The notes below the pieces were generated by a model. The model was not told where the DNA came from, made no database searches, and worked only from the letters and a program-made list of their open reading frames with translations. 64,000 nucleotides of DNA. Origin: Lachnospiraceae bacterium P6A3 (GTDB lineage: Bacteria; Bacillota; Clostridia; Lachnospirales; Lachnospiraceae). The translations under genes and the position numbers were made by a program. Below, piece after piece: positions 39,995 to 58,677 of this stretch; within the stretch, counting starts at the first letter, position 1; every line of letters starts with the position of its first letter. The DNA is taken from positions 62,001 through 126,000 of the forward strand of contig JNKP01000006.1 in NCBI GenBank assembly GCA_000702085.1, written 5' to 3'.

Positions 39995-40000
39995 AAAAAA

Positions 40001-40029: not shown

Positions 40030-40049
40030 ACGGTTAAGGGGGCATTTGA

Positions 40050-40078
40050 TTGAAATATCCTATTTAAAATAGTATTAT
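40050..40078 (+). promoter_or_regulatory. Sigma-A promoter of the trkA-trkH-fruK-ptsI unit
   Basis: TTGAAA and TATTAT are 17 bases apart, 54 bases before the trkA ATG. It is divergent from the promoter at 40001-40029. Confidence 0.7.
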
Positions 40079-40132
40079 ACATCATGTAGTGTTATGCACG
40101 AATAAAGGTGGCATATATGCCCCGGAGGATTT

Positions 40133-41488
40133 ATGAATATAGTCATAGTCGGATGCGGCAAGGTAGGTATGGTTATTACCAAACTGTTATCCAGCGAAGA
40201 TCACAATATCACACTGGTCGATGAGGACAGTGAAGCCATAGCCGCGGTAACCAACCACTACGATGCGATGGGGGTTATCGGAAACGGCGTAAGTTACCAG
40301 ACACTTGTTGAAGCCGGAATTAAGGAATGCGATCTCTTTATTGCTGTTACGGATTCCGATGAAAAAAACCTTCTTGCGTGTCTTATCGCAGGAAGAGCCG
40401 GAAGATGCAAGACCATAGCCAGAGTCAGAAATCCCATCTATTCACATGAAATAGATTTCCTTAAGAGAGAATTTAACCTTGCGATGGTAATCAACCCCGA
40501 AGATACCGCCGCAATGGAGATATCCAGAGTTTTCCTCTTCCCCCAGGTGTTTAAGATAGACACATTCTCCGGCGGAAGAGTCGAGCTTTTCCACTTCCAC
40601 GTAACCGAAGAGATGCCTATATGCGGACAGCCTCTTTCGGTGCTCAGGGAAGATATATTAAAGGGAATAATCGTGTGTACCATCAGGAGGGGCAAGGATG
40701 TAATTATCCCCAAAGGTAATTTCTCCTTTGCCGCGGATGATGATGTAAGCATCGCAACCACCAGAAAGGATGCGCTTGCATTCTTCAAAAAACTCGGAGT
40801 TGTAAAGGGCAGAGTCAGAAATGCCATGATCGTAGGCGGCGGTACTTTGTCTTATTATCTTGCGGAAAGACTCCTCAGATCCGGCATCGAAACCACCATT
40901 GTAGAGATGGATTATAAGAGATGCGAGGAACTCTCGGAGGGACTTCCCTCCGCAAGGATCATTCACGGAGACGGAACAAACAGAGACCTGCTCGATCAGG
41001 AAGATCTGTCATCCTTCCAGGGTTTTGCCGCGCTTACCGGACTTGATGAGGAGAACATCCTTCTGTCTCTTTATGCCGGAAAACATTCCAAGGCAAAAGT
41101 TGTTACCAAAATAGGAAGGCTGAATTTCGGATCCGTAATTGATGCTCTTAATCTTGATACGATAATCAACCCTTCCGCAATAACCGCGGATTATATCGTT
41201 AAGTTTGCACGTTCTCTGTCTACGGATCCTTCCAATGATGTTGAATCCCTGTACAAGCTTGAGGACGGAAAAGCGGAAGCAATCGAGTTTAAGATTAAGG
41301 AAGAATCCGCAGTAACGGGAGCCATGCTTAAAGACCTTAAGCTTCGTAAGGATACTCTTGTCTGCAGTATTTTCAGAAACGGTAAGAACATCATCCCTAC
41401 AGGTCAGGACAGGCTGATGGTTGGTGACAGAGTCATTATAGTCATGAGCGGCGGAAGGATCGCCAATATCAAGGAGATTCTCGAGTAA
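40133..41488 (+). CDS. trkA: Trk system potassium uptake protein TrkA
   Basis: The 451-residue cytoplasmic protein has two RCK units. Each has a Rossmann domain (I-V-G-C-G-K-V-G at the start; M-I-V-G-G-G-T-L-S near residue 230) that binds NAD(H) or ATP, followed by a TrkA_C domain. It gates the TrkH channel. A CCGGAGGA ribosome binding site precedes the ATG. The trkH gene follows after two bases. Confidence 0.96.
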   Translation: MNIVIVGCGKVGMVITKLLSSEDHNITLVDEDSEAIAAVTNHYDAMGVIGNGVSYQTLVEAGIKECDLFIAVTDSDEKNLLACLIAGRAGRCKTIARVRNPIYSHEIDFLKREFNLAMVINPEDTAAMEISRVFLFPQVFKIDTFSGGRVELFHFHVTEEMPICGQPLSVLREDILKGIIVCTIRRGKDVIIPKGNFSFAADDDVSIATTRKDALAFFKKLGVVKGRVRNAMIVGGGTLSYYLAERLLRSGIETTIVEMDYKRCEELSEGLPSARIIHGDGTNRDLLDQEDLSSFQGFAALTGLDEENILLSLYAGKHSKAKVVTKIGRLNFGSVIDALNLDTIINPSAITADYIVKFARSLSTDPSNDVESLYKLEDGKAEAIEFKIKEESAVTGAMLKDLKLRKDTLVCSIFRNGKNIIPTGQDRLMVGDRVIIVMSGGRIANIKEILE

Positions 41489-41490
41489 TC

Positions 41491-42930
41491 ATGAAGAAGA
41501 ATTCGATAATCCTTTATATCGTGGGAATACTCCTTTTGTTTGAGGGGGCTTTTCTTCTCCTTCCCATGATCATTTCATTAATATACAGTGACGGTAACTG
41601 GATGTGGTATCTGCTGACCGTCTTTATCTGTCTCGTTCCCGGTATTCCGCTTGCGAGGATCAAGCCCGGAAAAAATCTTTCACTCAAAGAAGGCTATATA
41701 ATAGTCGCACTGTGCTGGGTCGTTCTTTCGATCTTTGGCGCGATTCCTCTTATGCTCAGCGGAGATATTCCCGATTATGTCGATGCACTTTTTGAAACCG
41801 TATCCGGATTTACCACAACCGGAGCAAGTATTCTTTCGGATGTAACGGTGCTCAGCAGATCCGGAATGTTCTGGAGAAGCTTCATGCACTGGATCGGCGG
41901 TATGGGAATATTCATGTTCATGATGGCGGTTCTTCCCATGCTCGGAACTTCCGACATGAATCTTATGAGGGCCGAGTCCACCGGTCCGTCCGTGGAGAGG
42001 ATAGTTCCTCATGTGCGTGATACCGCAAGACTTATGTACAGCATGTATTTCGGAATCACCATTGCCGAAATGATCGCACTGCTTATATCCGGTATGGATC
42101 TGTATACCTCCGCACTTCTTACATTCGGAACCGTCGGCACCGGCGGATTCGGCATGGTTAATGAATCCTGCGGAACTTATACTGCGGCGCAGCAGCTCAT
42201 TATTGCGGTGTTCATGGCGGCCAGCGGAATCAATTATACTTTCTATTTCTTTATTTTATCCCGCAAGATAAAAGAAGCTTTCCACATAGAAGAGGTAAAA
42301 TACTATCTTGCGATAGTGCTTACTTCAACGATCATTATTGCGATAAACATCAGTCATATATATCAGAGCACGGGAGAATCTCTTCGACATGCGTTCTTCC
42401 AGGTTGCATCCATCATGACCACAACCGGTTATTCAACCGTTGATTTCGATCTTTGGCCCGAGCTGTCAAGAACCATCCTCATAATGCTGATGATGATAGG
42501 GGGATGTTCCGGATCCACTGCGGGAGGAATCAAGGTATACAGAATAGTTCTTCTTATGAAGCAGTTTGCCAAGGAGTTATCGGTTCTCAGGCATCCCAGA
42601 GAAGTTAAGCTTCTCAGAATGGACGGGAATACCGTTAAGGAACCTGTTATCCGTTCGACCAATGTTTTTATCTCGATCTATTTTGTGATCTTCTTCATAT
42701 CACTCTTATTTATCAGTATCGAGAACTATGATTTCACCACGGGATTTACCGCAGTTACCGCGACCATCAACAATATCGGTCCGGGCCTTTCGCTTGTAGG
42801 TCCCACATGCAACTACGGATTCTTTTCCCCGTATTCGAAAATAATACTGATCTTCGATATGCTTGCAGGAAGACTTGAGCTGTTCCCGGTGCTTCTGTTC
42901 TTCAGCATGTTGAAACCAAGGAGGAAATAA
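41491..42930 (+). CDS. trkH: Trk system potassium uptake channel TrkH
   Basis: The 479-residue membrane protein has the four-repeat TrkH/KtrB layout with selectivity-filter loops such as T-V-S-G-F-T-T-T-G-A, F-G-T-V-G-T-G-G-F-G and A-S-I-M-T-T-T-G-Y-S. It imports potassium with TrkA. It lies between trkA (2-base gap) and fruK (1-base gap), so potassium uptake is co-transcribed with a sugar-phosphate kinase and Enzyme I. Confidence 0.96.
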   Translation: MKKNSIILYIVGILLLFEGAFLLLPMIISLIYSDGNWMWYLLTVFICLVPGIPLARIKPGKNLSLKEGYIIVALCWVVLSIFGAIPLMLSGDIPDYVDALFETVSGFTTTGASILSDVTVLSRSGMFWRSFMHWIGGMGIFMFMMAVLPMLGTSDMNLMRAESTGPSVERIVPHVRDTARLMYSMYFGITIAEMIALLISGMDLYTSALLTFGTVGTGGFGMVNESCGTYTAAQQLIIAVFMAASGINYTFYFFILSRKIKEAFHIEEVKYYLAIVLTSTIIIAINISHIYQSTGESLRHAFFQVASIMTTTGYSTVDFDLWPELSRTILIMLMMIGGCSGSTAGGIKVYRIVLLMKQFAKELSVLRHPREVKLLRMDGNTVKEPVIRSTNVFISIYFVIFFISLLFISIENYDFTTGFTAVTATINNIGPGLSLVGPTCNYGFFSPYSKIILIFDMLAGRLELFPVLLFFSMLKPRRK

Positions 42931-42931
42931 A

Positions 42932-43867
42932 ATGGTCTACACTCTTACACTTAATCCTTCTCTCGACTATGTAATGTATCCCAGTGCATATCTCAAAAAG
43001 GGAGGAACCAACAGATCCGACAGAGAAGAACTTCGCGCGGGCGGAAAGGGAATAAATGTTTCCGTCGTCCTTAAGAATCTTGATGTTCCCACAAGAGCTC
43101 TCGGATTCATAGCGGGTGCAACGGGAGATGAGATCGAAGGTACACTGAGAAGTATCGGTATCCGTACCGGTTTCATTATGCTTCCCTATAAGAACGGAAT
43201 AAGCAGGATCAATGTTAAGATCAGAACTCCTTATGAAGATGAGGCTGAGCGCGGATATGAAGAGACCGAGCTTAATGCAGCAGGTCCCCTTGTGGAGGAT
43301 GAATCCGTAGACGAACTTTGCGAGAAAATAGAGAAGCTTACCGACGAAGATTTTCTGGTCATCGCAGGAAGCATGCCTTCACAGGCTCCGAAGGATACTC
43401 TTGAAAGAATCCTTAAAGCTGTTCCCGAAGGAGTAAAGGTTGTTGTTGATATGACGGGCGACAGACTTAAGAAGGCTCTTAAGTTCAAACCTTTCCTGAT
43501 CAAGCCCAATCTTGAAGAGCTCTGCCAGGCTTCGGGAAAAGAACTTAAGACCATAGAAGAGATTACCAAAGAGGGGGAAAAACTTCACAAAGAAGGCGCC
43601 GAGAATGTTATAGTATCTATGGGAGCGGACGGCGCTCTGCTTCTTGATAAGAACGGCGAAGTTCATAAATGCAAGGCTCCTGCCGGAAAAGCACTTGGTG
43701 CATTCGGCGCGGGCGATTCAATGACCGCCGGATTTATCAAAGGATTCCTTGATGAACATGATCCGGGATATGCTCTGAAACTCGGAGTTGCTGCCGGAAG
43801 TGCCGCAGTATTTGAGGGCAAACTTCCGGAGTATGAAGAGATAATGAAGGTATTCGATGAAGTATAA
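42932..43867 (+). CDS. fruK: 1-phosphofructokinase-type PfkB sugar kinase
   Basis: The 311-residue kinase has the PfkB signatures T-L-N-P-S-L-D at the start, A-G-G-K-G-I-N-V-S, and the C-terminal G-A-G-D-S-M-T-A-G-F with the catalytic Asp. It phosphorylates fructose-1-phosphate, or less likely tagatose-6-phosphate, to the bisphosphate. It overlaps the ptsI start by 11 bases, yet no fructose PTS permease (EIIABC) or regulator is encoded nearby. The fruK symbol is by family resemblance. Confidence 0.88.
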   Translation: MVYTLTLNPSLDYVMYPSAYLKKGGTNRSDREELRAGGKGINVSVVLKNLDVPTRALGFIAGATGDEIEGTLRSIGIRTGFIMLPYKNGISRINVKIRTPYEDEAERGYEETELNAAGPLVEDESVDELCEKIEKLTDEDFLVIAGSMPSQAPKDTLERILKAVPEGVKVVVDMTGDRLKKALKFKPFLIKPNLEELCQASGKELKTIEEITKEGEKLHKEGAENVIVSMGADGALLLDKNGEVHKCKAPAGKALGAFGAGDSMTAGFIKGFLDEHDPGYALKLGVAAGSAAVFEGKLPEYEEIMKVFDEV

Positions 43868-45551
43868 GGGATTGCCCATTAATGAAGGTATCGTAATAGG
43901 ACGTATCCGTGAGAGGTTTGCGTCAGGCTCCGGCGGCAGTAAGCGGGAGAAAGCTGACGCGGACTTCGAGAGGATGCGTTTTTTTGATGCTCTTTTGGAG
44001 TACGAAAGCTCCATGAAGCAGGTGGCATCAGAGAGTTCCAGCAAGGAAGGGAAGGATATCATATCCGCACAGATCATGATATCAAGAGATCCCGTGCTGA
44101 GCGATGAAGTTCTGGAACTGATAGATTCCGGAATGTTTGCGGATGATGCACTGGAGGAAGCGTGCAAAAAATATGGCGATCTTCTGAATGCATCGGGGGA
44201 TGAAACCATTATTGCCAGAAATGAAGATCTTGAAGAAGTGAAAAACGGCATAATGGCGCTTATGGGCGGCGAATCGGCTAAGTCAGCGCAGGATGGTACT
44301 GCAGAAAACGACGAGAATGTCATTTTTGCAGACAGACTCTCTGCGGCTCAGATAGTAAGCTGCAAAGCAGAGAACATAAAAGCCGTAGTAATGCGCGGCG
44401 GAAGCGAAGCATCCCATGCTGCCGTAATCTTAAGATCGATGGGCATTGTAGCGGTGTTCGGAGTTCCTTATACATCCGAGGATGTTTCGGATAATAAAGA
44501 ATGCATCGTAGACGGTAAAAACGGAATTGTAATAATCGGTCCGACTCAGGAAGAAAAGGCCGGATATTCAGGAGGGCATATTCCCGAGGTGAAGTCTGAG
44601 CCGGTGGTAAAAGGTGCTGCTGCGGAGGCTGCAAAAACCAAGGACGGAACAGAGATTGGTGTTTTGTGTAATATCAGCTCCGGCGATGTGCCTGCGGAGG
44701 CAGCCTGTTCGGACGGCGCGGGCCTTGTAAGGACAGAGTTTTTGTTCATGAGCGGAGGACTGAATTTCCCGGAAAATGAACAGGAGGAAATATATGCCCG
44801 TATAGCGGATTCTTTTACCGGTAAGGAAACGGTTATCAGAACTATGGATGTGGGCGCAGACAAGGGTCCTGACGGACTTCTTGAAAGCGAAGGACATGAA
44901 GATAATCCTGCCCTGGGATTAAGAGGCATCAGAAGAAGTCTTCTCGATCCCGACGGATTTATGGTGCAGGTAAGGGCAATACTTAAAGCTTCGCACGGAA
45001 GAAAGATAAATATCATGATTCCCATGGTCACTTCCCTTTCGGAGGTTATCGAAGCAAGGCATCTGATCGAGGGGTGCAGATACGAACTCGGAAAGCACGG
45101 CATAGCCTACCGCGAAGATATAAAACTGGGATGCATGATGGAGACACCTGCTGCGGTTATGTGTGCCAGTGAGCTTGCGAGGGAAGTCGATTTCTTTTCC
45201 ATAGGAACCAATGATCTGTCTCAGTACATAATGTGTGCCGACAGGGGTAATCCTGCCATGGCAAGCTATGTCAGTATATATCAGCCGGCGGTCATCAGGG
45301 CTGTAAAGCATATCTGTGACGCGGCACTGGGCACGGGGATTCCCGTAACCGTATGCGGTGAAGCGGCGTCGGATCCTGCCATGCTTCCCGTATTCTTAGG
45401 CCTGGGCGTCAGAAACCTGAGCGTATCGCCATATAAGGTTGCCGAGATAAAGAAGGCCGTCCGCGGACTTACCATGTCAAGTTGCAGAAGCCTTACTTCT
45501 CTCGTTCTTGAATCAGACAGCGCGGAGAAGATAAAAGAAATACTTAAATGA
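43857..45551 (+). CDS. ptsI: PTS Enzyme I (phosphoenolpyruvate-protein phosphotransferase)
   Basis: The 564-residue protein is close to the usual Enzyme I length. It has a helical HPr-binding region (about 30-140), the phospho-His domain with G-G-S-E-A-S-H (His187, E. coli His189), and the PEP-binding C-terminal barrel: V-R-T-E-F-L-F-M, R-T-M-D-V-G-A-D-K, M-M-E-T-P-A-A, G-T-N-D-L-S-Q-Y and V-C-G-E-A-A-S-D with the catalytic Cys. All key residues are present, though the HPr-binding part is divergent from the standard one. A second, shorter Enzyme I-like protein is encoded at 54557. No HPr or EII gene is in the window. Confidence 0.9.
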   Translation: MKYKGLPINEGIVIGRIRERFASGSGGSKREKADADFERMRFFDALLEYESSMKQVASESSSKEGKDIISAQIMISRDPVLSDEVLELIDSGMFADDALEEACKKYGDLLNASGDETIIARNEDLEEVKNGIMALMGGESAKSAQDGTAENDENVIFADRLSAAQIVSCKAENIKAVVMRGGSEASHAAVILRSMGIVAVFGVPYTSEDVSDNKECIVDGKNGIVIIGPTQEEKAGYSGGHIPEVKSEPVVKGAAAEAAKTKDGTEIGVLCNISSGDVPAEAACSDGAGLVRTEFLFMSGGLNFPENEQEEIYARIADSFTGKETVIRTMDVGADKGPDGLLESEGHEDNPALGLRGIRRSLLDPDGFMVQVRAILKASHGRKINIMIPMVTSLSEVIEARHLIEGCRYELGKHGIAYREDIKLGCMMETPAAVMCASELAREVDFFSIGTNDLSQYIMCADRGNPAMASYVSIYQPAVIRAVKHICDAALGTGIPVTVCGEAASDPAMLPVFLGLGVRNLSVSPYKVAEIKKAVRGLTMSSCRSLTSLVLESDSAEKIKEILK

Positions 45552-45566
45552 AGGATAATATGCTAA

Positions 45567-46979: not shown

Positions 46980-46980
46980 T
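46972..46980 (+). promoter_or_regulatory. Extended -10 promoter inside the MATE stop codon
   Basis: TGTTATAAT overlaps the MATE TAA. It is a perfect extended -10 element, 35 bases before the TTG start at 47015. No clear -35 box is seen. Confidence 0.5.
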
Positions 46981-47014
46981 AATATGATATGTATGTTTTT
47001 TGGAGGATCCGGGC

Positions 47015-48226: not shown

Positions 48227-49397
48227 CAAGAAAACATCATCCGCCGTATTTAGAATTGCTGCGCCGGTTCTGACCGTGCTGTATACCGCATTGTGCATTT
48301 TCCTGTATTACAAATATATGGGCTGGACCGAAGGATCCGTTTATGAATCCGATCTTCCCGCGCATATCAGCCTGGCAGTTGATGACGGTCTGATATATTC
48401 GCTCATATCACTTATCATAATCGGACTGTCAAAGAGCGGAACTCTTATCGTGCTTCCTGTTTTACTGGGACTGTTTGCGGCATTATCGGTTTTCTTTACA
48501 GCGGAACTGATTATCGAGATTACCGATAAGAAAACGAATCCGAATGCCGCGGTCCTTTTGGCACTGCTTCTGAATATAGTTATGCCATGCTACATAAGAG
48601 GACTTTCCGACGGCAGATATATGGGAATGCATGCTTCATCCATCTGGCATAACTCGACTTATCTGATGATGAAGTGGCTTGGACTTTGGACAATCCTTGT
48701 ATATCTGAATATTGAAAAGGATATCTCCAAGAAACTGACAGTAAAGTCATATTTATTCTTCACAGTCATTCTTACAATAACAACTGCGGCAAAGCCGAAT
48801 TTCTTTCTGGCAGTTACACCCGCAATGCTTGTTTTCCTGATCATCGATCTTGCAGGGAAAAAGGCACCGCTTCGGAGGCTTGTAATGTTCGGCTCTGCGG
48901 TTCTTCCTTCTTTTGCCGTGATGATCCTTCAAAACAGGGCACTTTTTAACGCAGGAGCCGGGGGAAGCGGGATCGTGATCGCACCCGGAAAAGCCATGGG
49001 CGCTCACACGGGATATCTGCTTATAGTAAGCGTGCTTTCAATCGCATTTCCTTTGATGATGCTGTTACTTCACATAAAGGAAATTTTCAAAAACAGATAT
49101 CTGCTCTTTGCGTGGCTTTGTGCGGGATGCGGATATATGGAATATTTTCTCTTCAGTGAAAAGGGCGCAAGAGATATGGATGCCAACTTCAGCTGGGGAT
49201 ATGCTTTTACGATAATACTTATCTTCGGAATATCTCTTGTCCTATGGATAAATGATCTGAAGGATATTAAGAAAAAGAACATTCTTACCAAATGCTATCT
49301 TGCGGGATGCGGACTGGTACTTGCATATCACACCTATTGCGGACTTTTGTTCTTTATAAGACTTTGCATGGGTGTCTCTTATATGATGTGGGGTTAA
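48219..49397 (+). CDS. Polytopic membrane protein, paralogue 2
   Basis: The 392-residue protein is a divergent duplicate of its upstream neighbour: about ten helices and matching motifs Y-E-S-D-L-P-A-H-I, I-W-H-N-S-T-Y, A-K-P-N-F, P-G-K-A-M-G-A-H-T and E-K-G-A-R-D...N-F-S-W-G-Y. The acidic S-D-x-P/V-D loop after the first helix is where GT-C enzymes keep catalytic acids. I infer a glycan-assembly role. It is embedded in the operon (8-base overlap upstream, 4-base gap downstream). Confidence 0.7.
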   Translation: MSDKKTSSAVFRIAAPVLTVLYTALCIFLYYKYMGWTEGSVYESDLPAHISLAVDDGLIYSLISLIIIGLSKSGTLIVLPVLLGLFAALSVFFTAELIIEITDKKTNPNAAVLLALLLNIVMPCYIRGLSDGRYMGMHASSIWHNSTYLMMKWLGLWTILVYLNIEKDISKKLTVKSYLFFTVILTITTAAKPNFFLAVTPAMLVFLIIDLAGKKAPLRRLVMFGSAVLPSFAVMILQNRALFNAGAGGSGIVIAPGKAMGAHTGYLLIVSVLSIAFPLMMLLLHIKEIFKNRYLLFAWLCAGCGYMEYFLFSEKGARDMDANFSWGYAFTIILIFGISLVLWINDLKDIKKKNILTKCYLAGCGLVLAYHTYCGLLFFIRLCMGVSYMMWG

Positions 49398-49401
49398 TGA
49401 T

Positions 49402-51234
49402 TTGGAGAAGCAGGCTTCTTTACAAAAAAATACCGGCCGCGAAAATCTGATATTTATAATTTCGTCGCTTCTTGCGGGATATGCGCTGACATTCGGATTC
49501 ACAAGCGGAGATCCGTTCTGGGCATATGGAAGAGTCAGCCTTGACTTTTTCAAAGCAAGGATTTTTTCCGCACTCGGTGATTATCAGTTCGATATGCTCG
49601 TGTGTGCACTTTTATGCGGATGCGCAATTTATTTCGTTAAGGAGAAGCTTTCGGCATATTTAAGAGGATATGTAATGCCCTTCATCCTCGGATTCATAGT
49701 TGTGGCCGGAAGAGCGGCTGCGGAATACGGAAACCTCTACTATGCATTCGGAACGGTTCCTTTCACCCTCAGAGCTGTTCTTGCTTCCCTCGGATTCGGG
49801 GTTATATTCAGACTTGTCTTTGCACTTTTCGAAGCGGGATTAAAGAAAGTATCTTCACTTGAGAACGGTCCGAAGTTTTTGGATACATTATTCGGAGATC
49901 ATACGGCGAGAAATGTATTTATATTACTGATCGTCTTATGGCTTCCTGTTACAATCCTAAACTTTCCGGGAAATTACAATGCGGATTTCATCGGCCAGAT
50001 GATGCAGAATACCGGAGAGATGCCCTGGTCGGGACATCATCCGATAGTTCTTACCGCACTTATCGGAATATGGTTCAGATTTTTCAGGATGGTATTCGGA
50101 AATTATGATCTCGGATTGTTTTTCTGGATTGTTCTTCAGGAGATTGCCCTGGCATCCGCACTTTCACTTACCATTAGGGAATTGAAAAAAAGAGGAGCAA
50201 AAACTCCGCTCCTTGCCTCAGTTTTCGGCATATATGTTTTTTCTCCCATTTATTCGAACATCGTAACCACCGCAATCAAGGATGTTTTCTTCATCTCCGC
50301 CGTAATATGGTATGTTTTGCTGACGGTTTCTTATTACGAAGACGAAAAAGAATTTCTTGCGGATAAAAAGAAACTGTTCATGATATGCCTTGCTGCATTT
50401 CTTGCATGCATGTGCAGAAATAACGGCTCCATCCTGGTATTCGTAAACGGTGTGGTTATGTGCGTTCACGGTATGGAAAAATCATCCGTTAAAGGTCTTG
50501 CGAAGAAGGCGGCGGTTTTTATCATACTTCCCCTCGGCATATATACGGCTTTTTCGTCAGGAATCAAAGCTGCGGTTAACGCAGAGAGTGACGGACTTAA
50601 AGAAATGCTTTCCATACCGATGCAGCAGACTGCACTTTATATGACTGAGTATGAGGACGAGCTTACCGAAGAAGAGATCGGATCCGTAAATGCGTTATTC
50701 GGTAATTACAAAGATATGATTGAAAGTTATGACCCGACCATATCGGATCCCGTTAAGCAGTACTATGATACAAATGCCGATGGAAGGGTTGTGGCCGGAT
50801 ATCTGAAGAGCTGGGCAAAGATGTTTTTCAAACATCCCGGCACATATTTCGAATCATTTTTCCTGAGTGTATACGGATGGTTTGACCCCGAAACCGATAC
50901 ATCCGTCAGATACGAAGGAGACAGCGAGTTTTTTACAAGAACCGGATTATTTGAAGGTGCGGATGAGATATTGATCTTCGCATACAGATATATAGACAGG
51001 ATTTCGTTTTTCGGAATGCTGCAAAGCCCCGGACTGTGGACATGGATAATGTTTCTTCTCATCAGGAGGCGTAAAGGTTCATCGCATCTGTATGCGGTGC
51101 AGCTTATCTCTCTTTTGATATGTATGGCCGGTCCCTGCTTCATGAAGCATGCCAGATATGCTTTCCCCATTATGTTTACGATTCCGTTTATGATGGGTTA
51201 TGAGGGATTATTAATGAACGGAGAAAAAGAATGA
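49402..51234 (+). CDS. DUF6020-like large membrane protein
   Basis: The 610-residue protein has about fourteen membrane helices. The middle contains L-N-F-P-G-N-Y-N-A-D, S-G-H-H-P-I and N-G-S; a large polar loop (about 415-500) carries D-P-T-I-S-D-P, and the C-terminus has K-H-A-R-Y-A-F-P. This pattern fits DUF6020, a family of surface-polymer-associated membrane proteins in clostridia with a GT-C-like layout. The TTG start follows the previous stop by four bases. Activity unproven. Confidence 0.7.
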   Translation: MEKQASLQKNTGRENLIFIISSLLAGYALTFGFTSGDPFWAYGRVSLDFFKARIFSALGDYQFDMLVCALLCGCAIYFVKEKLSAYLRGYVMPFILGFIVVAGRAAAEYGNLYYAFGTVPFTLRAVLASLGFGVIFRLVFALFEAGLKKVSSLENGPKFLDTLFGDHTARNVFILLIVLWLPVTILNFPGNYNADFIGQMMQNTGEMPWSGHHPIVLTALIGIWFRFFRMVFGNYDLGLFFWIVLQEIALASALSLTIRELKKRGAKTPLLASVFGIYVFSPIYSNIVTTAIKDVFFISAVIWYVLLTVSYYEDEKEFLADKKKLFMICLAAFLACMCRNNGSILVFVNGVVMCVHGMEKSSVKGLAKKAAVFIILPLGIYTAFSSGIKAAVNAESDGLKEMLSIPMQQTALYMTEYEDELTEEEIGSVNALFGNYKDMIESYDPTISDPVKQYYDTNADGRVVAGYLKSWAKMFFKHPGTYFESFFLSVYGWFDPETDTSVRYEGDSEFFTRTGLFEGADEILIFAYRYIDRISFFGMLQSPGLWTWIMFLLIRRRKGSSHLYAVQLISLLICMAGPCFMKHARYAFPIMFTIPFMMGYEGLLMNGEKE

Positions 51235-52013
51235 ATCTGATATTTCTTGATATAGATATGACAATCTGGGATGAGCTGCTTCGCATCCCGGAAAGTACCA
51301 AGGATGCAATCCGACTCGCAAGGGTTATGGGCAACAAAGTGTTTATAAACACGGGAAGGTCCAGATCCAATACAATGTATAAAGAACTGGATGAGCTGGG
51401 AATGGACGGAGTGGTAGCCGCATGCGGATGCCATGTTGAGATAGGAGGAGAGATTCTTTATCAAAAGCTCTTAACATGGGATCAGGTACAGACTTCACTG
51501 AAAGTTCTTCACGACGAGCATATGCCGCTTGTCCTTGAAGGAAGTAGAAATTGTTTCTTCGATCCTGAAGACTTCCCGGATGATCCTTTTGCCAAAACTC
51601 TGTGGGAATCCCTGGGCGACAGGGCGAAGAAACTGAATACGGTAACAAAGGATGATCCCATAAACAAATTCAGTGCGGATATAACCGATGAAACGGATTA
51701 TGATCTGGTATGCGAGAAGCTGGACGATTTTCTATATGAGATAAACCATAATAATATTGTTGTTGAGTTTGTTCCCAAAGGCCATTCCAAAGCAACGGGA
51801 ATGGAGTTTGTAAGAAAGTATTACGATGTGCCTGCCGAGAACGTTTATGCCGTAGGAGACGGTATGAATGACATGGAAATGATCAAGGCGGCAGCACACG
51901 GCATTGCGATGGGACAGGGAAATCCGGAACTTCTCATGGCATCGGACTATGTTACCGACTCTATTTACGAAGACGGGATTTACAAAGCATTCAAGCATTA
52001 CAAACTGATCTGA
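51231..52013 (+). CDS. Cof-type HAD-superfamily phosphatase
   Basis: The 260-residue protein has the HAD motifs F-L-D-I-D-M-T (Asp7, Asp9), I-N-T-G-R (motif II), Lys in G-H-S-K-A-T-G, and V-G-D-G-M-N-D-M-E-M (motif IV), with a C2 cap. Cof-type enzymes hydrolyse sugar phosphates or flavin nucleotides. It overlaps DUF6020 by four bases, so it is translated with the membrane-protein cluster. Confidence 0.92.
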   Translation: MNLIFLDIDMTIWDELLRIPESTKDAIRLARVMGNKVFINTGRSRSNTMYKELDELGMDGVVAACGCHVEIGGEILYQKLLTWDQVQTSLKVLHDEHMPLVLEGSRNCFFDPEDFPDDPFAKTLWESLGDRAKKLNTVTKDDPINKFSADITDETDYDLVCEKLDDFLYEINHNNIVVEFVPKGHSKATGMEFVRKYYDVPAENVYAVGDGMNDMEMIKAAAHGIAMGQGNPELLMASDYVTDSIYEDGIYKAFKHYKLI

Positions 52014-52032
52014 ACGCCCGCAGATGCTTGAT

Positions 52033-52061
52033 TTGACTGTATAACGGGTTGTATATTTAAA
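52033..52061 (+). promoter_or_regulatory. Possible internal promoter before the epimerase gene
   Basis: TTGACT and TTTAAA are 17 bases apart, in the 82-base gap before 52096. The -35 box is good and the -10 box poor. Confidence 0.35.
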
Positions 52062-52095
52062 GAAACTGAGAGTTGTTACACAAATGGAGGGTCAT

Positions 52096-52758
52096 ATGCG
52101 CTTTAACATTCATGCTTCTATGATGTGTGCCGATTTCGGAAATCTTAAAGAAGAAGTTAAAAAGCTCGAAGAAGCCGGTGTGGATTATTTTCACATCGAT
52201 ATCATGGACGGAAGATATGTTCCGAATTTTGCCATGAGTCTTTACGATATGAAGTACATCGCAAAAGCTACGGATAAACCGCTGGATGTACATCTGATGA
52301 TCGAGCATCCCAATAACAATATCGAGATGTTCCTGCATAACTTAAGGCCGGGAGATATAGTTTATATTCATCCCGAAGCAGAGTATCATCCTTCGACCAC
52401 ACTTCAGAAAGTTATCAACGCAGGAATAACACCCGGAATAGCCATCAATCCCGGAACAAGCGTCGAATCCATTCTCGAGCTTCTCAGAATAGTCGACAAG
52501 GTTCTGGTTATGTCGGTAAATCCCGGAAATGCGGGGCAGATGTTCCTGCCTTATGTCGGCGAAAAGATCAACTATCTTCTCGAACTTCAGAAGACAATGC
52601 ATTTCGATCTTATCTGGGACGGTGCGTGCACTCTTGAAAGAATGAAAACATATGCGCCTATGGGAATGAGCGGATTTGTACTCGGAACATCCGTACTGTT
52701 CGGTCATGATAAACCTTATAAAACGATCATAGATGATATCAGGAGAATGAAATTCTGA
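52096..52758 (+). CDS. Ketose-phosphate 3-epimerase (Rpe/AlsE family)
   Basis: The 220-residue TIM-barrel enzyme has the family motifs S-M-M-C-A-D-F, H-I-D-I-M-D-G (His and Asp ligands), L-D-V-H-L-M-I, S-V-N-P-G-N-A-G-Q and W-D-G-A-C. The last two and the G-T-S-V-L-F end look closer to D-allulose-6-phosphate 3-epimerase than to housekeeping ribulose-5-phosphate epimerase. It would interconvert a ketopentose or ketohexose phosphate. ATG 52096 has GGAGGG seven bases upstream. Its stop overlaps the cytidylyltransferase start. Confidence 0.85.
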   Translation: MRFNIHASMMCADFGNLKEEVKKLEEAGVDYFHIDIMDGRYVPNFAMSLYDMKYIAKATDKPLDVHLMIEHPNNNIEMFLHNLRPGDIVYIHPEAEYHPSTTLQKVINAGITPGIAINPGTSVESILELLRIVDKVLVMSVNPGNAGQMFLPYVGEKINYLLELQKTMHFDLIWDGACTLERMKTYAPMGMSGFVLGTSVLFGHDKPYKTIIDDIRRMKF

Positions 52759-53438
52759 TGATTGCCGCGATCATATTATCCGGAGGAACAGGCCTGCGGA
52801 TGGGAAAGGATATTCCCAAACAGTACCTGGAGGTGGCCGGAAAACCGATAATCGCATATTGCATCGAAACCTTCGAAAGATCGAACAAGATCGATAAGAT
52901 CGTGATCGTGTGTGCCGATGAGTATAAAGATCTCATGGAAGGACAGATACATTCGCGGGATAAATTTGTCTGCTTTGCACCCCCCGGTGAAACAAGACAG
53001 CTTTCCATATTGTCCGGAATGAATGCACTTAAAGAAATATTGTCGGAAAGCGACAGTGTTATCATCCATGATGCGGCCAGACCTCTTGTGACCGAAGATA
53101 CGATTGAAAAGATTGCGGAGGCTCTTGAAAGCTCGGATGCGGTTCTCCCGGTTTTGCCGATGAAAGATACCGTATACGAAGTGGAAGACGGTAAAGTAGT
53201 ATCAAATCTCGAAAGAAGCAGGATAGCTGCCGGACAGGCGCCGGAAGGATTTAAATTCGGCGCATATCTCAAAGCAAACGAGATGCTTCTCCCTGACGGG
53301 ATCCTCGAAATAAGCGGATCCATGCAGCCCGCCGTTATGGCCGGAATGAACATTAAAACCATCCCCGGAGACGAGAATAATTTTAAGATAACCACTCCGG
53401 CGGATCTTGAAAGGTTTGAAGAGATTACGGGAAGATGA
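52758..53438 (+). CDS. IspD/TarI-family cytidylyltransferase
   Basis: The 226-residue enzyme has the nucleotide-binding loop L-S-G-G-T-G-L-R-M-G, P-K-Q-Y, and H-D-A-A-R-P. It transfers CMP from CTP to a sugar- or polyol-phosphate. IspD (isoprenoid synthesis) and TarI (CDP-ribitol) share this fold. Context favours the TarI side: an epimerase gene precedes it and a polyol-phosphate-type dehydrogenase gene follows with a 4-base overlap, the same logic as TarI-TarJ. No ispF is nearby. Confidence 0.85.
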   Translation: MIAAIILSGGTGLRMGKDIPKQYLEVAGKPIIAYCIETFERSNKIDKIVIVCADEYKDLMEGQIHSRDKFVCFAPPGETRQLSILSGMNALKEILSESDSVIIHDAARPLVTEDTIEKIAEALESSDAVLPVLPMKDTVYEVEDGKVVSNLERSRIAAGQAPEGFKFGAYLKANEMLLPDGILEISGSMQPAVMAGMNIKTIPGDENNFKITTPADLERFEEITGR

Positions 53439-54547
53439 AAGCATATGTATTAAACGGCATAGCCGATATCGGATTGAGAGATGCTGAAACACCCTTATCC
53501 GGAGGCGAAGGTATAGTCGGAAGAAACGGCCAGACATCCGTTTCCGAAGCAGACTGCGTGATCGTAAAGGTACATGCTGCAGGCATATGCGGATCCGATA
53601 TACCCAGGATTTACAAAACGGGAGCATATCATCATCCCCTTATTCCGGGACATGAATTCAGCGGTGAAGTAACGGACGCCGGAAGCGATAGGCTTAAGAG
53701 TTACATAGGAAAGAGAGTCGGGATATTTCCTCTGATCCCCTGTGGAAAGTGTTCTTCGTGCAAAAAGAAACTTTACGAGATGTGCAAGAATTACAATTAC
53801 CTCGGATCAAGATGTGACGGGGGATTTGCGGAATATGTAAAGGTTCCCGCATCGGGGCTTATAGAACTTCCCGATAATGTAACTTATGAGCAGGCTGCCA
53901 TGCTTGAGCCCATATCCGTTTCCATGCATTCCATAAGACAGTGCGGACTTTCGCTTGAACCCGGTGCGGAAGAAAGAGGCCTTAATATCGTTATCTCGGG
54001 AATGGGAACAATCGGCCTGTTCACACTTATGCTGTTAAAAGGCATGGGCTATAAAAATATATTCTGTGTGGGCAACAAGGAATGCCAGAAAGAATACGCC
54101 GAATCTTTGGGACTGGGCGCCGGGAGATTTTGCAATATAAAAAATGACGATCCTGTCGCTTTTGTAAACGAAGTAACCGGCGGCGAAGGTGCTGATGTTT
54201 ATTTCGAGTGCGTGGGCAGGAATGAATCGGTCCGTCTCGGACTGAATGTCCTTTCGGGCGGCGGAAGGCTCCAGCTTGTGGGCAATCCGGCATCCGATAT
54301 GGATTTTCCGAAAGACGAATATTGGAAAATTTTAAGAAAGCAGTTTAAGGTGACCGGAACATGGAATTCCTCTTTTACCGGAGAAGAAGACGATGACTGG
54401 CATCTTGTTCTTAAAGCTTTGAAGGAAGGAAAAATCTCTCCGGAAAAGCTTATATCTCACAGGTTTTCTTTTGAGGAACTGATCAGGGGTTTTGAGATAA
54501 TGAGAGATAAAACGGAGGATTACGTCAAAGTAATGACCCTCCTGTAG
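53435..54547 (+). CDS. Zinc-dependent MDR dehydrogenase, polyol-phosphate type (GatD/TarJ-like)
   Basis: The 370-residue MDR enzyme has catalytic zinc ligands in A-G-I-C-G-S-D and P-G-H-E-F, the structural zinc motif C-G-K-C-S-S-C-K-K-K-L-Y-E-M-C, and the NAD(P)-binding G-M-G-T-I-G-L-F. The pattern is nearest galactitol-1-phosphate 5-dehydrogenase. Acting in reverse it would reduce a ketose phosphate to the alditol phosphate that the adjacent cytidylyltransferase activates. Substrate not determined. An insertion at residues 20-35 is unusual for the family. Confidence 0.85.
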   Translation: MKAYVLNGIADIGLRDAETPLSGGEGIVGRNGQTSVSEADCVIVKVHAAGICGSDIPRIYKTGAYHHPLIPGHEFSGEVTDAGSDRLKSYIGKRVGIFPLIPCGKCSSCKKKLYEMCKNYNYLGSRCDGGFAEYVKVPASGLIELPDNVTYEQAAMLEPISVSMHSIRQCGLSLEPGAEERGLNIVISGMGTIGLFTLMLLKGMGYKNIFCVGNKECQKEYAESLGLGAGRFCNIKNDDPVAFVNEVTGGEGADVYFECVGRNESVRLGLNVLSGGGRLQLVGNPASDMDFPKDEYWKILRKQFKVTGTWNSSFTGEEDDDWHLVLKALKEGKISPEKLISHRFSFEELIRGFEIMRDKTEDYVKVMTLL

Positions 54548-54556
54548 GATGATCGA

Positions 54557-55942
54557 ATGTTAAACGGATCTGAAGTTTCAAAAGGAATAGGAATCGGTAT
54601 CGCTAAGGTTATATCATCACCGGAAAGCGGTGTTATGAGCAACGATGAATTTACTGCTGCGATATCCGGAATGAAACCGGGTGCTGTTTTGGTAACCTCC
54701 TTCCTTACACCGTATATGGTAGGAGTACTTAAGGATTACAGCATCGCGGGACTCGTATGCGAAACGGGAGGTATGGCTTCACACTCGGCCCTTGCGGCCA
54801 AGTCTATGGGAATACCCACTGTTTATGATGTATACGGTGCGACTGAAGAGATACATGACGGTGACACTGTTATAGTAGACGGAATAGGCGGGTATGTGTA
54901 TGAAAGACCCGACCCTGATATTGTTGCCGTGTATTCGGATAAAAGAAAAAAATATCTTGCGGATCTTGAAGATCTGAAAAGCTACAGGAATCTCAAAACC
55001 GTCATGGCAGACGGAACCGAAGCGGTCATTATGTGTAATGCATCCGACATACTGAGCGTTATGCATGCGATCGACGAAGGCGGAGAGGGAATCGGACTGT
55101 TCAGAACCGAGAATCTCCTTTCGGGTGAAGGACGTATCCCTGATGAAGAAGAGCAGACCAGAGTTTACTCAAGAATCGCATCCGCAATGAAGGGTAAGGA
55201 AGTCATTGTCAGAACGCTGGACATAGGCGGCGATAAGAGTATTCCCTTCCTGGAGCTGGAAAAAGAAGACAATCCCTTTCTGGGATACAGAGGCGTAAGG
55301 TACAGCCTCGGTCACAGGGATGTATTTACAACGCAGCTCCGCGCCATACTCAGGGCAAGTGCCGGCGGGAATCTGTCCATAATGATCCCGATGGTTACAT
55401 GTGTAGAAGAGATGAGAAACATCAAATCCCTTATTCATGAGATCAAAACGGATCTGCGGGATGAAGGATTTGATTTTAACGATGATATCAAAGTCGGTGC
55501 AACCATAGAAACTCCTTCCGCTGCGATCATTGCGGATATGCTTGCGCACGAGTGCGATTTCTTTTCCATAGGAACCAACGATCTGGTGCAGTATGTAATG
55601 AGCGCGGACCGCGGAAACAGCAGAGTTGCATATCTTCAGTCCGTAACACAGCCTTCGATACTGCGCATGATAAAACAGACCATCGATGCCGCAAGGTCTG
55701 CCGGTATCGATATTTCAATATGCGGTGAAGCAGCATCGGATCCTGAAGTGATCCCCATAATCGCAGGTTTCGGATGCAGAAAGTTCAGTGTTAATCCCCG
55801 TTCCGTTTCGGAAGTAAGGAGAACTCTTTCGGAGTGGACTACGGCCGATGCGGAAAAATTGGCTTCGGACATTCTGAAGATTCCTGTCGATCAGGAGATC
55901 AAAGAATACCTTCACAAAATCTACAAGGACAGAAAGTCGTAA
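54557..55942 (+). CDS. Enzyme I-like PEP-utilising protein lacking the HPr-binding domain
   Basis: The 461-residue protein is about 110 residues shorter than Enzyme I. It starts with the first beta strands (G-I-G-I-G-I-A), then goes directly to the phospho-His domain with G-G-M-A-S-H (His76; E. coli His189). The HPr-binding four-helix insert is absent. The PEP barrel is complete: F-R-T-E-N, R-T-L-D-I-G-G-D-K, Y-R-G-V-R, I-E-T-P-S-A, G-T-N-D-L-V-Q-Y and I-C-G-E-A-A-S-D. It should take phosphate from PEP onto His76, but its acceptor cannot be HPr by the usual interface. It sits between a polyol dehydrogenase gene and an EamA transporter gene. Confidence 0.85.
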   Translation: MLNGSEVSKGIGIGIAKVISSPESGVMSNDEFTAAISGMKPGAVLVTSFLTPYMVGVLKDYSIAGLVCETGGMASHSALAAKSMGIPTVYDVYGATEEIHDGDTVIVDGIGGYVYERPDPDIVAVYSDKRKKYLADLEDLKSYRNLKTVMADGTEAVIMCNASDILSVMHAIDEGGEGIGLFRTENLLSGEGRIPDEEEQTRVYSRIASAMKGKEVIVRTLDIGGDKSIPFLELEKEDNPFLGYRGVRYSLGHRDVFTTQLRAILRASAGGNLSIMIPMVTCVEEMRNIKSLIHEIKTDLRDEGFDFNDDIKVGATIETPSAAIIADMLAHECDFFSIGTNDLVQYVMSADRGNSRVAYLQSVTQPSILRMIKQTIDAARSAGIDISICGEAASDPEVIPIIAGFGCRKFSVNPRSVSEVRRTLSEWTTADAEKLASDILKIPVDQEIKEYLHKIYKDRKS

Positions 55943-56850
55943 TGAATAAAGCTCGTATATTGTTTGCATTGCTCCAGCTTTTTGGAGCACTTATATGGGG
56001 ACTTGCCTTCGCCTTTCAGAGTATCGGAATGGATAAGGTCGGCCCCTTTACTTTTTCGGCTGTAAGATTCGCCATGGCCACGGCCACGGTTTTCGGTTTT
56101 TCTTTTATTCATGACAGGTTCGGTAATTCGGGCAAGGATCCCAAAGCATGTTCCTGGAAGAACCCTAAGCTGTGGAAAGCGGGAATAATAATAGGAATTC
56201 TTTTATCCTTTGCCTCGAATCTGCAACAGATAGGTATTTTAAAAACCGATTCCGTGGGAAAAGCGGGATTCATAACCGCAATGTATATAGTTATCGTCCC
56301 TGTTCTGGGTCTTTTTATGAAAAGAAAGATCGGGGTAAATGTCTGGATCGGTATCATCATCGCAGTGGCCGGATTATATTTCCTGACCATGAGCGGAAGC
56401 TTTAAGGTAACTTCCGGAGATCTGTATCTGATAGCGTGTGCGGCGGTTTTTGCGGTTCAGATACTGGCGATAGATGCGTTTTCGGGAGAGTATGACAGCG
56501 TGAAGCTGGCATGTATAGAGTTTTTGACGGTAACCGTAACCAGTTCCGCCTTTATGTTCGCACTTGAAGATGTGAATTTGACCATGATAATGGCGGCCAT
56601 GATACCGCTTTTGTATTCGGGCGTTTTGTCCGGGGGCATCGCATATACGATACAGATAATATGCCAGTCCAGGATAGAGCCATATGTTGCATCGATCCTT
56701 ATGAGTTCGGAGGCACTGTTTTCCGTTTTGGGCGGATTCCTGATCCTGCATCAAAGGCTGTCTTCCAGGGAAATGATAGGAAGCCTTTTGATGTTCGCGG
56801 CTATAATGATCGTTCAGGCAGTACCCGAAAAGAAAAAGAAAGAGGCATAA
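55942..56850 (+). CDS. EamA/DMT-family transporter
   Basis: The 302-residue membrane protein has ten helices in two EamA repeats, with G-A-L-I-W-G-L-A-F-A-F-Q-S at the start and S-R-I-E-P-Y-V-A-S-I-L-M-S-S-E-A-L-F-S-V-L in the second repeat. It moves a metabolite or amino acid across the membrane. ATG 55942 overlaps the previous TAA by one base; a longer frame would overlap the Enzyme I-like gene by over 100 bases. Confidence 0.92.
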   Translation: MNKARILFALLQLFGALIWGLAFAFQSIGMDKVGPFTFSAVRFAMATATVFGFSFIHDRFGNSGKDPKACSWKNPKLWKAGIIIGILLSFASNLQQIGILKTDSVGKAGFITAMYIVIVPVLGLFMKRKIGVNVWIGIIIAVAGLYFLTMSGSFKVTSGDLYLIACAAVFAVQILAIDAFSGEYDSVKLACIEFLTVTVTSSAFMFALEDVNLTMIMAAMIPLLYSGVLSGGIAYTIQIICQSRIEPYVASILMSSEALFSVLGGFLILHQRLSSREMIGSLLMFAAIMIVQAVPEKKKKEA

Positions 56851-56852
56851 AT

Positions 56853-56879
56853 AAAGGGCAGGATTTAATCCTGCCCTTT
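56853..56879. terminator. Bidirectional terminator between EamA and the diguanylate cyclase
   Basis: An 11-bp stem (AAAGGGCAGGA with TCCTGCCCTTT, loop TTTAA) lies exactly between the two convergent stop codons. A-tracts and T-tracts on both sides make it work in both directions. Confidence 0.9.
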
Positions 56880-56882
56880 ATA

Positions 56883-58514
56883 TCATTCGTTTTGTTTCGG
56901 CGGATCGATTCCGAAAAGAGCGCTTTCCGTGTAGGAATCTTCGGAAAAAGTGATGGGTGCGGAAGGGGTATCGCCGCCTTCGAGTGCGGCCTCTTCGTCA
57001 GCTTTTCCGCTGAGAATGTCTTCCAGCTCTTTGGCGGAGAGGTTTTCGAAATGGCCGGATCCGTCGGTGGATAAAGGAATATTGTCCGGTGAGCCACCGC
57101 CTATGGATCTTAAGAATGCATCAAGCTCGTTTTCTTCGGAGCTTTCTTCTTTTTCTTCGGTTTCAATCTTGCTTACGACCCTGTTTCTTCCGCTGTTCTT
57201 GGCAAAATACAGCTTATCGTCCGCATTTCTTATCAGGTCGTCCAGACTTTCTTCCTTGTCCCATTCGCTGACACCGTAGCTCATGGTTACCTTGATCACG
57301 TAGTTGTCGTACCTGATCTCGGCGGCTCTGATCTTATCGAGAAGGCCCCAGAGACTGTTTTCGGCCATCAGAAGGCTTGTTCTGTCAAATACCATGAGGA
57401 ATTCTTCTCCGCCCCATCTGGAAACAAAGCCGTAGTTTTTCATATGTTCCCTGATGATATCTGCAACTTTTATAAGAACCTCGTCGCCTGCGTCATGACC
57501 GTAGGTGTCATTAACGTGCTTGAAAAAGTCGATGTCACCGATTGAGATACAGAAGGATTCGGGTGAATTCTTGGCCTTGGCTATGATGGGAGCCAGTTTT
57601 CTGTGAGCCGAGCGGCGGTTGAAAAGTCCGGTGAGAGGATCGGATTCCATCATGGCTCTCATGGAGCGCTGCATCAACAATACGCTTTCACCGATCTCAC
57701 CAAGTTCGTCACGCCTTCTGAGCAGGTTTTCGTCGAGGGTTACGGTCTCGTTACCGCCGGAAGCTTCCTTGACGAATGAAAAGATGCTCTCGATGGCTCC
57801 GGTCATGGGCCTTGTAATTGATACGACTATGAAGATCATGACTCCGGTGAGGATGAGAGCTATTCCCGCAAGGATGAGGATATAAGATCTTATGGTCTTG
57901 TTGACATTGGCCGAAGGACGGGCTGCGGCTATCATTCCCTGTATATTGCCGTGGCTTGAAACCAAGGGGATATAGTAGGTGTAATAGGGGGTTCCGAAGA
58001 TCACCGTATTGTTGTAAAAGGCTTCTTGTCCGTCTTCAAATACGGTCTTGTAGATCTGGGACGCGACTCCGGTTCCCACCATTCTGGCTCCGTCTTCACC
58101 GGCGAGGGTGGTGAGAATACGGGTGTCTTTATAGAAAATGGAAATATCCAGGTCCGTGGACTCTTTAATGGAATCGATCACGGAATAATCCATGGTTATA
58201 TTCGAGTCACCCTTGTAGAAATACAGGGCATCGCTGCCGGTGAGTCTGTAGTCGCCCGCATATGTGGCATCCATGAGAAGCGCGGTGCTCATACAGGCGT
58301 TACGGAGTTCCTTTTCCGCCATATCATGCATGATACCGCTCAAAAAGGGGATTCCGGCGAATGTAATCACGAGTGCGAAAAGGATGACCGGAAGGATGGC
58401 AACGGTGTACATCTGACCGCTTATGGACCCTTTTCTGGCACGTTTATGTTTCTTTTTTGTTGTCTTAGTATTTTTATCAGCCACTTTTGTGATCCTCATA
58501 AAATAACTACCCAT
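56883..58514 (-). CDS. Membrane diguanylate cyclase with Cache-like sensor, HAMP and GGDEF
   Basis: The 543-residue protein has a basic N-terminus, a membrane helix (about 35-60), an extracellular Cache-like domain (about 62-205), a second helix (about 208-232), a HAMP domain, and a GGDEF domain with intact G-G-E-E-F (368-372), D-P-L-T-G-L-F-N-R and F-K-H-V-N-D. It makes c-di-GMP. No R-x-x-D inhibition site precedes the GGEEF. About 90 acidic, Ser-rich residues follow the GGDEF domain, which is unusual. The start may instead be Met6 (58499): a -10 box lies three bases before 58514. Confidence 0.92.
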   Translation of the reverse strand: MGSYFMRITKVADKNTKTTKKKHKRARKGSISGQMYTVAILPVILFALVITFAGIPFLSGIMHDMAEKELRNACMSTALLMDATYAGDYRLTGSDALYFYKGDSNITMDYSVIDSIKESTDLDISIFYKDTRILTTLAGEDGARMVGTGVASQIYKTVFEDGQEAFYNNTVIFGTPYYTYYIPLVSSHGNIQGMIAAARPSANVNKTIRSYILILAGIALILTGVMIFIVVSITRPMTGAIESIFSFVKEASGGNETVTLDENLLRRRDELGEIGESVLLMQRSMRAMMESDPLTGLFNRRSAHRKLAPIIAKAKNSPESFCISIGDIDFFKHVNDTYGHDAGDEVLIKVADIIREHMKNYGFVSRWGGEEFLMVFDRTSLLMAENSLWGLLDKIRAAEIRYDNYVIKVTMSYGVSEWDKEESLDDLIRNADDKLYFAKNSGRNRVVSKIETEEKEESSEENELDAFLRSIGGGSPDNIPLSTDGSGHFENLSAKELEDILSGKADEEAALEGGDTPSAPITFSEDSYTESALFGIDPPKQNE

Positions 58515-58516
58515 AT

Positions 58517-58545
58517 ATTATATATTTCGCGTTATCAAAAAACAA
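58517..58545 (-). promoter_or_regulatory. Promoter of the diguanylate cyclase gene
   Basis: On the minus strand TTGTTT and TATAAT are 17 bases apart. Transcription would start near 58510, inside the first annotated codons, which favours the in-frame ATG at 58499. Confidence 0.55.
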
Positions 58546-58564
58546 TGCAAAACCCGCTATAATA

Positions 58565-58593
58565 TTGACAATATCGGCATTTTCAACTAAAAT
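58565..58593 (+). promoter_or_regulatory. Sigma-A promoter of ileS
   Basis: TTGACA and TAAAAT are exactly 17 bases apart, giving a leader of about 78 bases before the ileS ATG. Confidence 0.75.
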
Positions 58594-58630
58594 TGCGTTT
58601 GATACATTTTTATAGTAGAGAAGCAAAGAC

Positions 58631-58661
58631 GCCTCGCTTACCAGGGTGAGGTTTGTTTTTT
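58631..58661 (+). terminator. Small terminator-like hairpin in the ileS leader
   Basis: A 7-bp stem with two or three G-U pairs (58631-58637 with 58646-58652) is followed by TTTGTTTTTT and ends 10 bases before the ribosome binding site. It may attenuate ileS. No T-box sequence is present. Confidence 0.5.
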
Positions 58662-58677
58662 ATTACAGGAGGAATTT

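Follow-up and report, generated by a model that had tools for sequence, protein, structure and literature searches.

A natural Enzyme I paralogue without the HPr-binding subdomain in a gut Lachnospiraceae bacterium and its close relatives

Enzyme I (EI) of the PTS is defined by the passing of phosphate to HPr, and a conserved natural EI without a dock for HPr departs from this definition. A gene for such a protein is located at positions 54557..55942 (+) of the window, the 64,000-nucleotide stretch of DNA from Lachnospiraceae bacterium P6A3 that was analyzed here. PEP can probably still charge this protein, which would then have to put the charge to another use.

Domain organization of the short Enzyme I

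The open reading frame of this short EI paralogue (P0001, 461 aa) begins with ATG at 54557, ends with TAA at 55940-55942 and contains no internal stops. The protein scored 438.3 bits against TIGR01417, over the cut-off of 341.7, and the match spans only positions 154-564 of the 565 in the profile. The Pfam matches included the mobile, phosphohistidine (swivel) domain PF00391 at residues 40-110 (54674..54886, +) and the PEP-binding barrel PF02896 at residues 141-426 (54977..55834, +), and neither the HPr-binding domain PF05524 nor the ATP-grasp nucleotide domain PF01326 was among them. The residue His76 (codon 54782..54784, +), which is aligned to His189 of E. coli EI and is invariant in 12/12 rows of our alignment A1, sits in the sequence GGMASHSAL, in agreement with the GG-x-x-SH motif. 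When the short forms were aligned with E. coli PtsI, the H189 column held His and the Arg126 column a gap in 15/15 short rows. Residues R296, R332, R358, E431, N454, D455, R465, and C502 (E. coli numbering), which we take to be the catalytic list of EI, were conserved in each of the 14 short rows spanning the whole barrel, and the fifteenth row, a 235-residue piece, has the His, R296, and R332. These data bear out the preliminary description of this DNA in its claims of a phospho-His motif at His76, a complete PEP barrel and a missing HPr-binding insert, and the residues checked support the view that the short EI would be competent for charging.

The limits of the deletion were determined by alignment to the E. 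coli protein. Residues 1 to ~20 of the short EI align with the N-terminal ~20 residues of E. coli EI, and residue 41 aligns with EI residue 154, which argues that the first strands of the swivel domain are present and that the insert alone is missing. These strands correspond to residues 1-19 (54557..54613, +), with a strand predicted at residues 11-19 in the structural model. They are followed by a variable linker of residues ~20-40 (54614..54676, +), which replaces the ~119-residue HPr-binding subdomain. The limits of this subdomain in E. coli EI are given as 25-143 (PMC5537066), and the subdomain linkers as 19-32 and 143-156 (PMC8295985). As judged from the alignment, the deletion falls in both linkers and removes exactly the HPr-binding subdomain.

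The AlphaFold model of the short EI is composed of a swivel domain, a long linker helix and a barrel, and no extra substrate domain was found either in this model or by Pfam. The best of five models had a mean pLDDT of 81.6 and a pTM of 0.76, while the others ranged from 75.2 to 48.5; the input alignment had 11 rows, and the weak stretches were at residues 223-228, 235-247, and 350-361. The best PDB matches found by Foldseek were EI entries, among them 2hwg_A with a TM of 0.85 by query length, and 2hro, to which the short EI is 40% identical (425 columns in the Foldseek alignment). By sequence, too, EIs (2hro, 2wqd, and 2hwg) came nearest among proteins of solved structure, aligned from query residue 36-42.

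Distribution, selection and relation to the full-length Enzyme I

The set searched for the short EI contained 59 genomes, including 31 of the genus, with the window genome (G000) among them, and 28 other relatives. The short EI was found in 14 of the 31 genus genomes (G000, G001, G004, G007, G015, G017, G018, G020, G022, G023, G026, G027, G028, and G030, the last counted from two pieces at contig ends), and there was none among the matches listed for the 28 relatives outside the genus. Of the 17 other genus genomes, 16 contain a single EI, seen either with its HPr-binding region or as a contig-edge fragment of such an EI, and in the remaining one (G006) this search detected no EI. A wider scan of relatives with two short peptide patterns identified the short form in 14 of 80 loci (13 genomes), among the best 80 of 351 relatives, and the other 66 loci had no intact frame of its size, frames of 317 and 392 residues being partial. 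The motif search in these 80 loci left 7/66 non-short loci without a His position, and its first match was wrong in 2/14 short ones. The named records were Lachnospiraceae, mostly MAGs, many of them from rumen or omasum, plus AC2028 (L131), which seems to be a cultured isolate. No further short EI was present among the matches listed from 392 genomes of the order, where frames of 163 and 274 aa were set aside, or among those listed from 398 genomes of the phylum; rare or distant cases could escape all of these scans. In the phylum scan, matches beginning at query position 3-4 belong to frames of ~590-615 aa, presumably pyruvate kinases with a swivel tail. A plasmid search with the short EI gave no match of at least 60% identity, and the five matches listed were annotated as ptsP and aligned from residue 36 or 44; PADLOC returned no matches.

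The dN/dS values were 0.044-0.087 for the short EI (10 pairs from five close genomes) and 0.065-0.117 for the full-length EI in five close genomes, with synonymous sites near saturation in both cases. The short EI thus has its phosphohistidine domain, its PEP barrel and those catalytic residues that were checked intact and under strong purifying selection. The preliminary description had allowed that the short form could arise from a sequencing deletion, which is excluded by its presence in 14 genomes. The listings from searches of open-licence PMC texts named no natural EI without the HPr-binding domain, and the genome searches found this natural, selected form in no group other than the gut bacterium and its close relatives.

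The window also encodes a full-length EI of 564 aa, here called B (43857..45551, +), which matches PF05524, PF00391, and PF02896 and has the sole PF05524 match of the G000 genome. B lies upstream of the short EI, at 10.7 kb from start to start, as expected from the normal-length EI that the preliminary description had placed ~11 kb upstream. The test for a partner, which was co-occurrence and a shared gene run, gave a positive result for B, as it is present in 14/14 short-EI genomes and is on the same contig and strand as the short EI in 11/11 testable ones, G017, G018, and G022 having contigs that do not allow this test. B was found without the short EI in two of the 16 B genomes, which are G010, where the absence of the short EI is visible at the locus, and G002, which is 83% complete and has its short-EI locus off the contig seen; hence, B does not need the short EI. 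In G020 (L049:1340-3022) the B gene is in two pieces, of 145 and 386 aa, and the short EI is intact. The broken frame could reflect decay or perhaps a MAG error.

In the tree, the short rows formed one clade (100/100) and the B EIs another (100/100). On columns common to all EIs, B grouped with the pfkB-linked EIs of seven other genus members (98/90), and the pfkB-linked EIs of G019 and G025 fell elsewhere. The short form and B as one clade, corresponding to a recent duplication of B, was disfavoured (AU p 0.028), with long branches making this unsure, while the grouping of the short form, B, and the seven PfkB-linked EIs was not rejected (AU p 0.41). Hence, as far as the long branches allow, the short form probably represents an older paralogue and not a fresh copy of B. 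We read the short EI as a vertically inherited EI paralogue.

The two proteins also differ in how far they have diverged. The dimer-interface loop, located at residues 333-366 of E. coli EI (PMC5537066), is 57% identical to 25 other EIs in the short form and 44% in B, as compared with 61% among those EIs themselves. Judged by these identities, the short form has an EI-like loop and the loop of B has drifted. The NPALG change of the B loop also occurs in G021, where the search found no short form. In the barrel, B was more divergent than the short form in 62/66 comparisons, which are non-independent and come from 12 genomes. There are 18 positions conserved in the short form (at least 92%) and rare (<15%) in B and other EIs, and examples from the swivel domain are C68, L79, Y90, T104, and E116. 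B carries the same catalytic residues as the short EI in the alignment with E. coli PtsI.

Gene neighbourhood and PTS components of the host

The short EI belongs to a gene run with the order trkA-trkH-pfkB-EI(B)-MATE-m408-m392-m610-HAD-[rpe-ispD-adh]-short EI-eamA, followed by a reversed GGDEF gene and ileS, and neighbouring genes in this run are separated by gaps of ≤102 bp among the loci listed. The same-strand run begins upstream with trkA and trkH (40133..42930, +) and a PfkB-family, 1-phosphofructokinase-like kinase (42932..43867, +), which overlaps the full-length EI gene. The order trkH-pfkB-EI (41491-45551 in the window) is such that potassium uptake genes lead into B in 16/16 B genomes, with trkA further upstream where the stretch reaches. 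Between 47000 and 51234 the window encodes three consecutive large membrane-like proteins, of which only the third matches Pfam (DUF6020). The run shows local gains and losses among genomes. A consensus scan of 39500-58700 gave 30 promoter-like sites, which is not above the shuffle mean of 35.2, and 28 terminator-like sites against 18.2 in shuffles (sd 3.7), scattered on both strands. With variable genes between the two EIs and terminator-like sites above shuffles, a single transcript is uncertain.

Three neighbours of the short EI are constant: upstream it has a HAD hydrolase gene, and downstream it is followed by the reversed GGDEF gene and by ileS. The HAD (Cof-like) hydrolase gene (51231..52013, +) is upstream of the short EI in 14/14 genomes, either directly or with an optional cassette between them, which encodes an Rpe-like epimerase, an IspD-like cytidylyltransferase and a zinc dehydrogenase (52084..54547, +). 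An EamA-family transporter gene (55942..56850, +), with the ATG at 55942 as its likely start, shares 1 bp with the stop codon of the short EI (TAATG). In 12/14 genomes eamA overlaps the short EI or lies no more than 4 bp from it, and it is absent in G020 and G023.

The preliminary description had assigned the short EI to a sugar-nucleotide or surface-polymer cassette, and the three genes do precede it in this window, as stated there. They lie between HAD and the short EI in 7/14 genomes, the window genome and six relatives. A check of whether homologues always adjoin the cytidylyltransferase and dehydrogenase genes, which had been suggested together with this assignment, was run, and it showed that only these 7/14 do; in the other seven loci the cassette is absent and the short EI directly follows HAD. 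In G010, one contig carries HAD-Rpe-IspD-ADH and then the GGDEF gene, and the short EI and EamA are missing. With the two dissociated in both directions, there is no longer a basis for linking the short EI to sugar-nucleotide synthesis.

The G000 genome contains three PF02896 proteins, which are the short EI, B, and an 899-aa PPDK. It has one HPr with GLHLRPAG and NAKS motifs, which we take to contain His15 and Ser46, and the HPr of five short-EI relatives is 96.6-98.9% identical to it. One Crh-like protein without the His was read by eye beside a WhiA-like gene. A third HPr-like protein (L006:1456-1686, G000:C4:77700) is small, is without the phospho-His region and is barely over the Pfam cut-off, and similarly weak matches occur in many relatives. 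Outside the window, the neighbouring 762- and 840-aa frames at G000:C3:187101-192614 match PF01326 with no PF02896 match; the 840-aa frame also matches the swivel domain, and both resemble phosphotransferase dikinases.

A search of G000 for three PTS permease families, PF02378, PF00359, and PF03610, gave no matches; EI and HPr are probably regulatory in this organism. PF02378 is present in 8/31 genus genomes, one of which, G022, has the short EI together with one EIIC. The comparison of 1/14 short-EI genomes with 7/17 others gave a Fisher p of 0.045, which ignores kinship and was given no evidential weight. A separate HPr-binding domain acting in trans was discarded, as PF05524 occurs once in G000, within B, and so was a DhaM/EIIA-man route, as PF03610 is absent in the 20 genus genomes searched.

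A possible link of EI to chemotaxis was noticed elsewhere in the genus. In six members (L054 G009, L055 G005, L056 G014, L057 G012, L058 G029, and L060 G013) a PfkB gene and a single full-length EI are followed by a CheV-like protein of ~302-325 residues with a CheW and a receiver domain (by Pfam in L054 and L057, and by eye in the other four), and PF02378 is absent in 5/6 of these genomes. In L066 (G016), the gene after EI encodes a methyl-accepting chemotaxis protein. For E. coli, PMC4996493 describes signalling from EI to CheA, so such a link deserves a look.

Possible roles of the short Enzyme I and comparison with known systems

The absence of the HPr dock supports the view that HPr should not be the acceptor of the short EI. 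The HPr-independent role claimed in the preliminary description is therefore upheld in part: the protein is a real EI derivative without the dock, and no free-standing PF05524 protein was found in this genome, while the cassette role did not stand. From what is known of EI chemistry, His76 would autophosphorylate from PEP, and the charged protein, having no exit to HPr, would equilibrate with pyruvate; E. coli EI is described as carrying pyruvate-to-PEP back-flux in vivo (PMC5290146). As transfer to HPr should be impossible, the phosphorylation state of the short EI would settle with the PEP/pyruvate ratio. The affinity for PEP may be judged from an engineered E. coli protein, EI-delta-EINalpha, which consists of residues 1-21 and 146-575 with the H189A mutation (Lee et al. 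2017, PMC5537066). Its Kd for PEP is given as 0.037 uM, about 12-fold tighter than the 0.43 uM of EI(H189A), with 260 uM for the barrel alone; removal of the subdomain is described as sparing the hinge cost of EI closing, and dimerisation as priming closure allosterically (PMC5537066). If the natural protein behaves likewise, the short EI would be expected to bind PEP tightly, more so than the full-length EI, to favour the closed state and to charge His76. With less certainty, its barrel would pair with B from the same gene run and tune B's charging of HPr, although, with the sister relation of the two proteins disfavoured, pairing is not the default expectation.

We tentatively propose, at somewhat less than even confidence, that the short EI is a PEP/pyruvate-poised regulatory protein, which most likely acts as partner to B. 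The PEP-sensing switch, which the preliminary description had also offered, would be the reading that fits best. It is possible, although we hold this more loosely, that the short EI serves as a PEP/pyruvate ratiometer, in which the state of its His, set with high PEP affinity, is relayed by dimer exchange or by a private acceptor. An acceptor other than HPr could be one of two live options, the other being an acceptor-free, PEP/pyruvate-poised partner of B.

The chief rival is that the short EI is a dedicated PEP-dependent phosphodonor, which would pass phosphate to another protein or to a small molecule through the freed phosphohistidine domain. Several of the 18 short-form-specific positions are in the swivel domain, and the EamA gene adjoins the short EI in 12/14 genomes. 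Swivel domains are also able to deliver phosphate to various acceptors: B. subtilis EI alone is described as phosphorylating rifampicin in vitro, with no such activity detected in vivo (PMC13099321), and a two-component dikinase as having a separate swivel protein for phenolic substrates (PMC12167813). On the other hand, EamA is missing in G020 and G023, the constant neighbours HAD, GGDEF, and ileS include no evident acceptor, and the short EI is without an extra substrate domain, so we consider this explanation possible but doubtful. The existence of split swivel kinases (PMC12167813) is also consistent with the short EI being half of a split PEP synthase or dikinase, with the ATP-grasp domain as a separate protein, and PPDK_N matches are present in 13/14 short-EI genomes as compared with 7/17 other genus genomes. 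This distribution can follow from kinship alone, however, and the PPDK_N frames listed for G000 are long (899, 840, and 762 aa) rather than stand-alone ATP-grasp domains, while by score the short EI is much closer to EI than to PEP synthase or PPDK, all of which makes a split dikinase very improbable.

A division of labour between the two EIs would have the short form take phosphate from PEP and charge the N-terminal half of B in trans, with B serving HPr. The short form's more EI-like barrel loop, as against the drifted one of B, and the greater divergence of the B barrel are consistent with this, and separate EI halves reportedly complement each other, as Fomenkov is said to have found in 1998. 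But B has the same catalytic residues and should therefore charge itself, and G010, and apparently also G002, have B but no short form, which makes such a division unlikely. That the short EI phosphorylates or regulates a step of sugar-nucleotide or surface-polymer synthesis would agree with its position directly after Rpe-IspD-ADH in the window and six relatives, but with seven loci without the cassette, and G010 having the cassette without the short EI, there is little likelihood of this. A decaying gene or an assembly artefact could have been suspected, as a domain is gone and the organism lacks the PTS permeases that were looked for; it is refuted by the occurrence in 14 genomes, the kept catalytic residues and the low dN/dS, which leave it a negligible chance.

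The PEP/pyruvate-poised regulatory reading may be set against known systems. Like permease-less regulatory PTS, for example that of Brucella (PMC2937029), the host keeps EI and HPr without a sugar permease of the families searched, while an EI without the HPr-binding subdomain does not appear in the descriptions of such systems that were found. A conserved dockless EI in an organism without a permease of the tested families suggests a separate use for the half of the enzyme that reads PEP. With only two proteins and standard assays, it becomes possible to ask what EI/HPr systems without permeases sense and control. PPDK, PEP synthase, and rifampin phosphotransferase share with the short EI the swivel His domain, and the first two also the PEP barrel, but they have an ATP-grasp domain, which is absent from the short EI. 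DhaM (met as NF008478) is likewise an EI-derived piece outside the classical chain; presumably, it is the opposite of the short EI, with the N-terminal part of EI and an HPr domain, and no barrel. The EI of the PTS itself (PtsI; TIGR01417; PDB 2hwg, 2wqd, and 2hro) has the same swivel domain, linker helix, barrel and active-site residues checked, and differs in having the HPr-binding alpha subdomain (PF05524), the HPr dock and Arg126, which has no equivalent in the short EI. The closest likeness in the cut is to EI-delta-EINalpha, from which nearly the same part was removed. Unlike this laboratory construct with its H189A mutation, the short EI is natural and selected, keeps the His and has a variable linker of ~20 residues, and it is thus the natural counterpart of the protein that biophysicists built to dissect EI.
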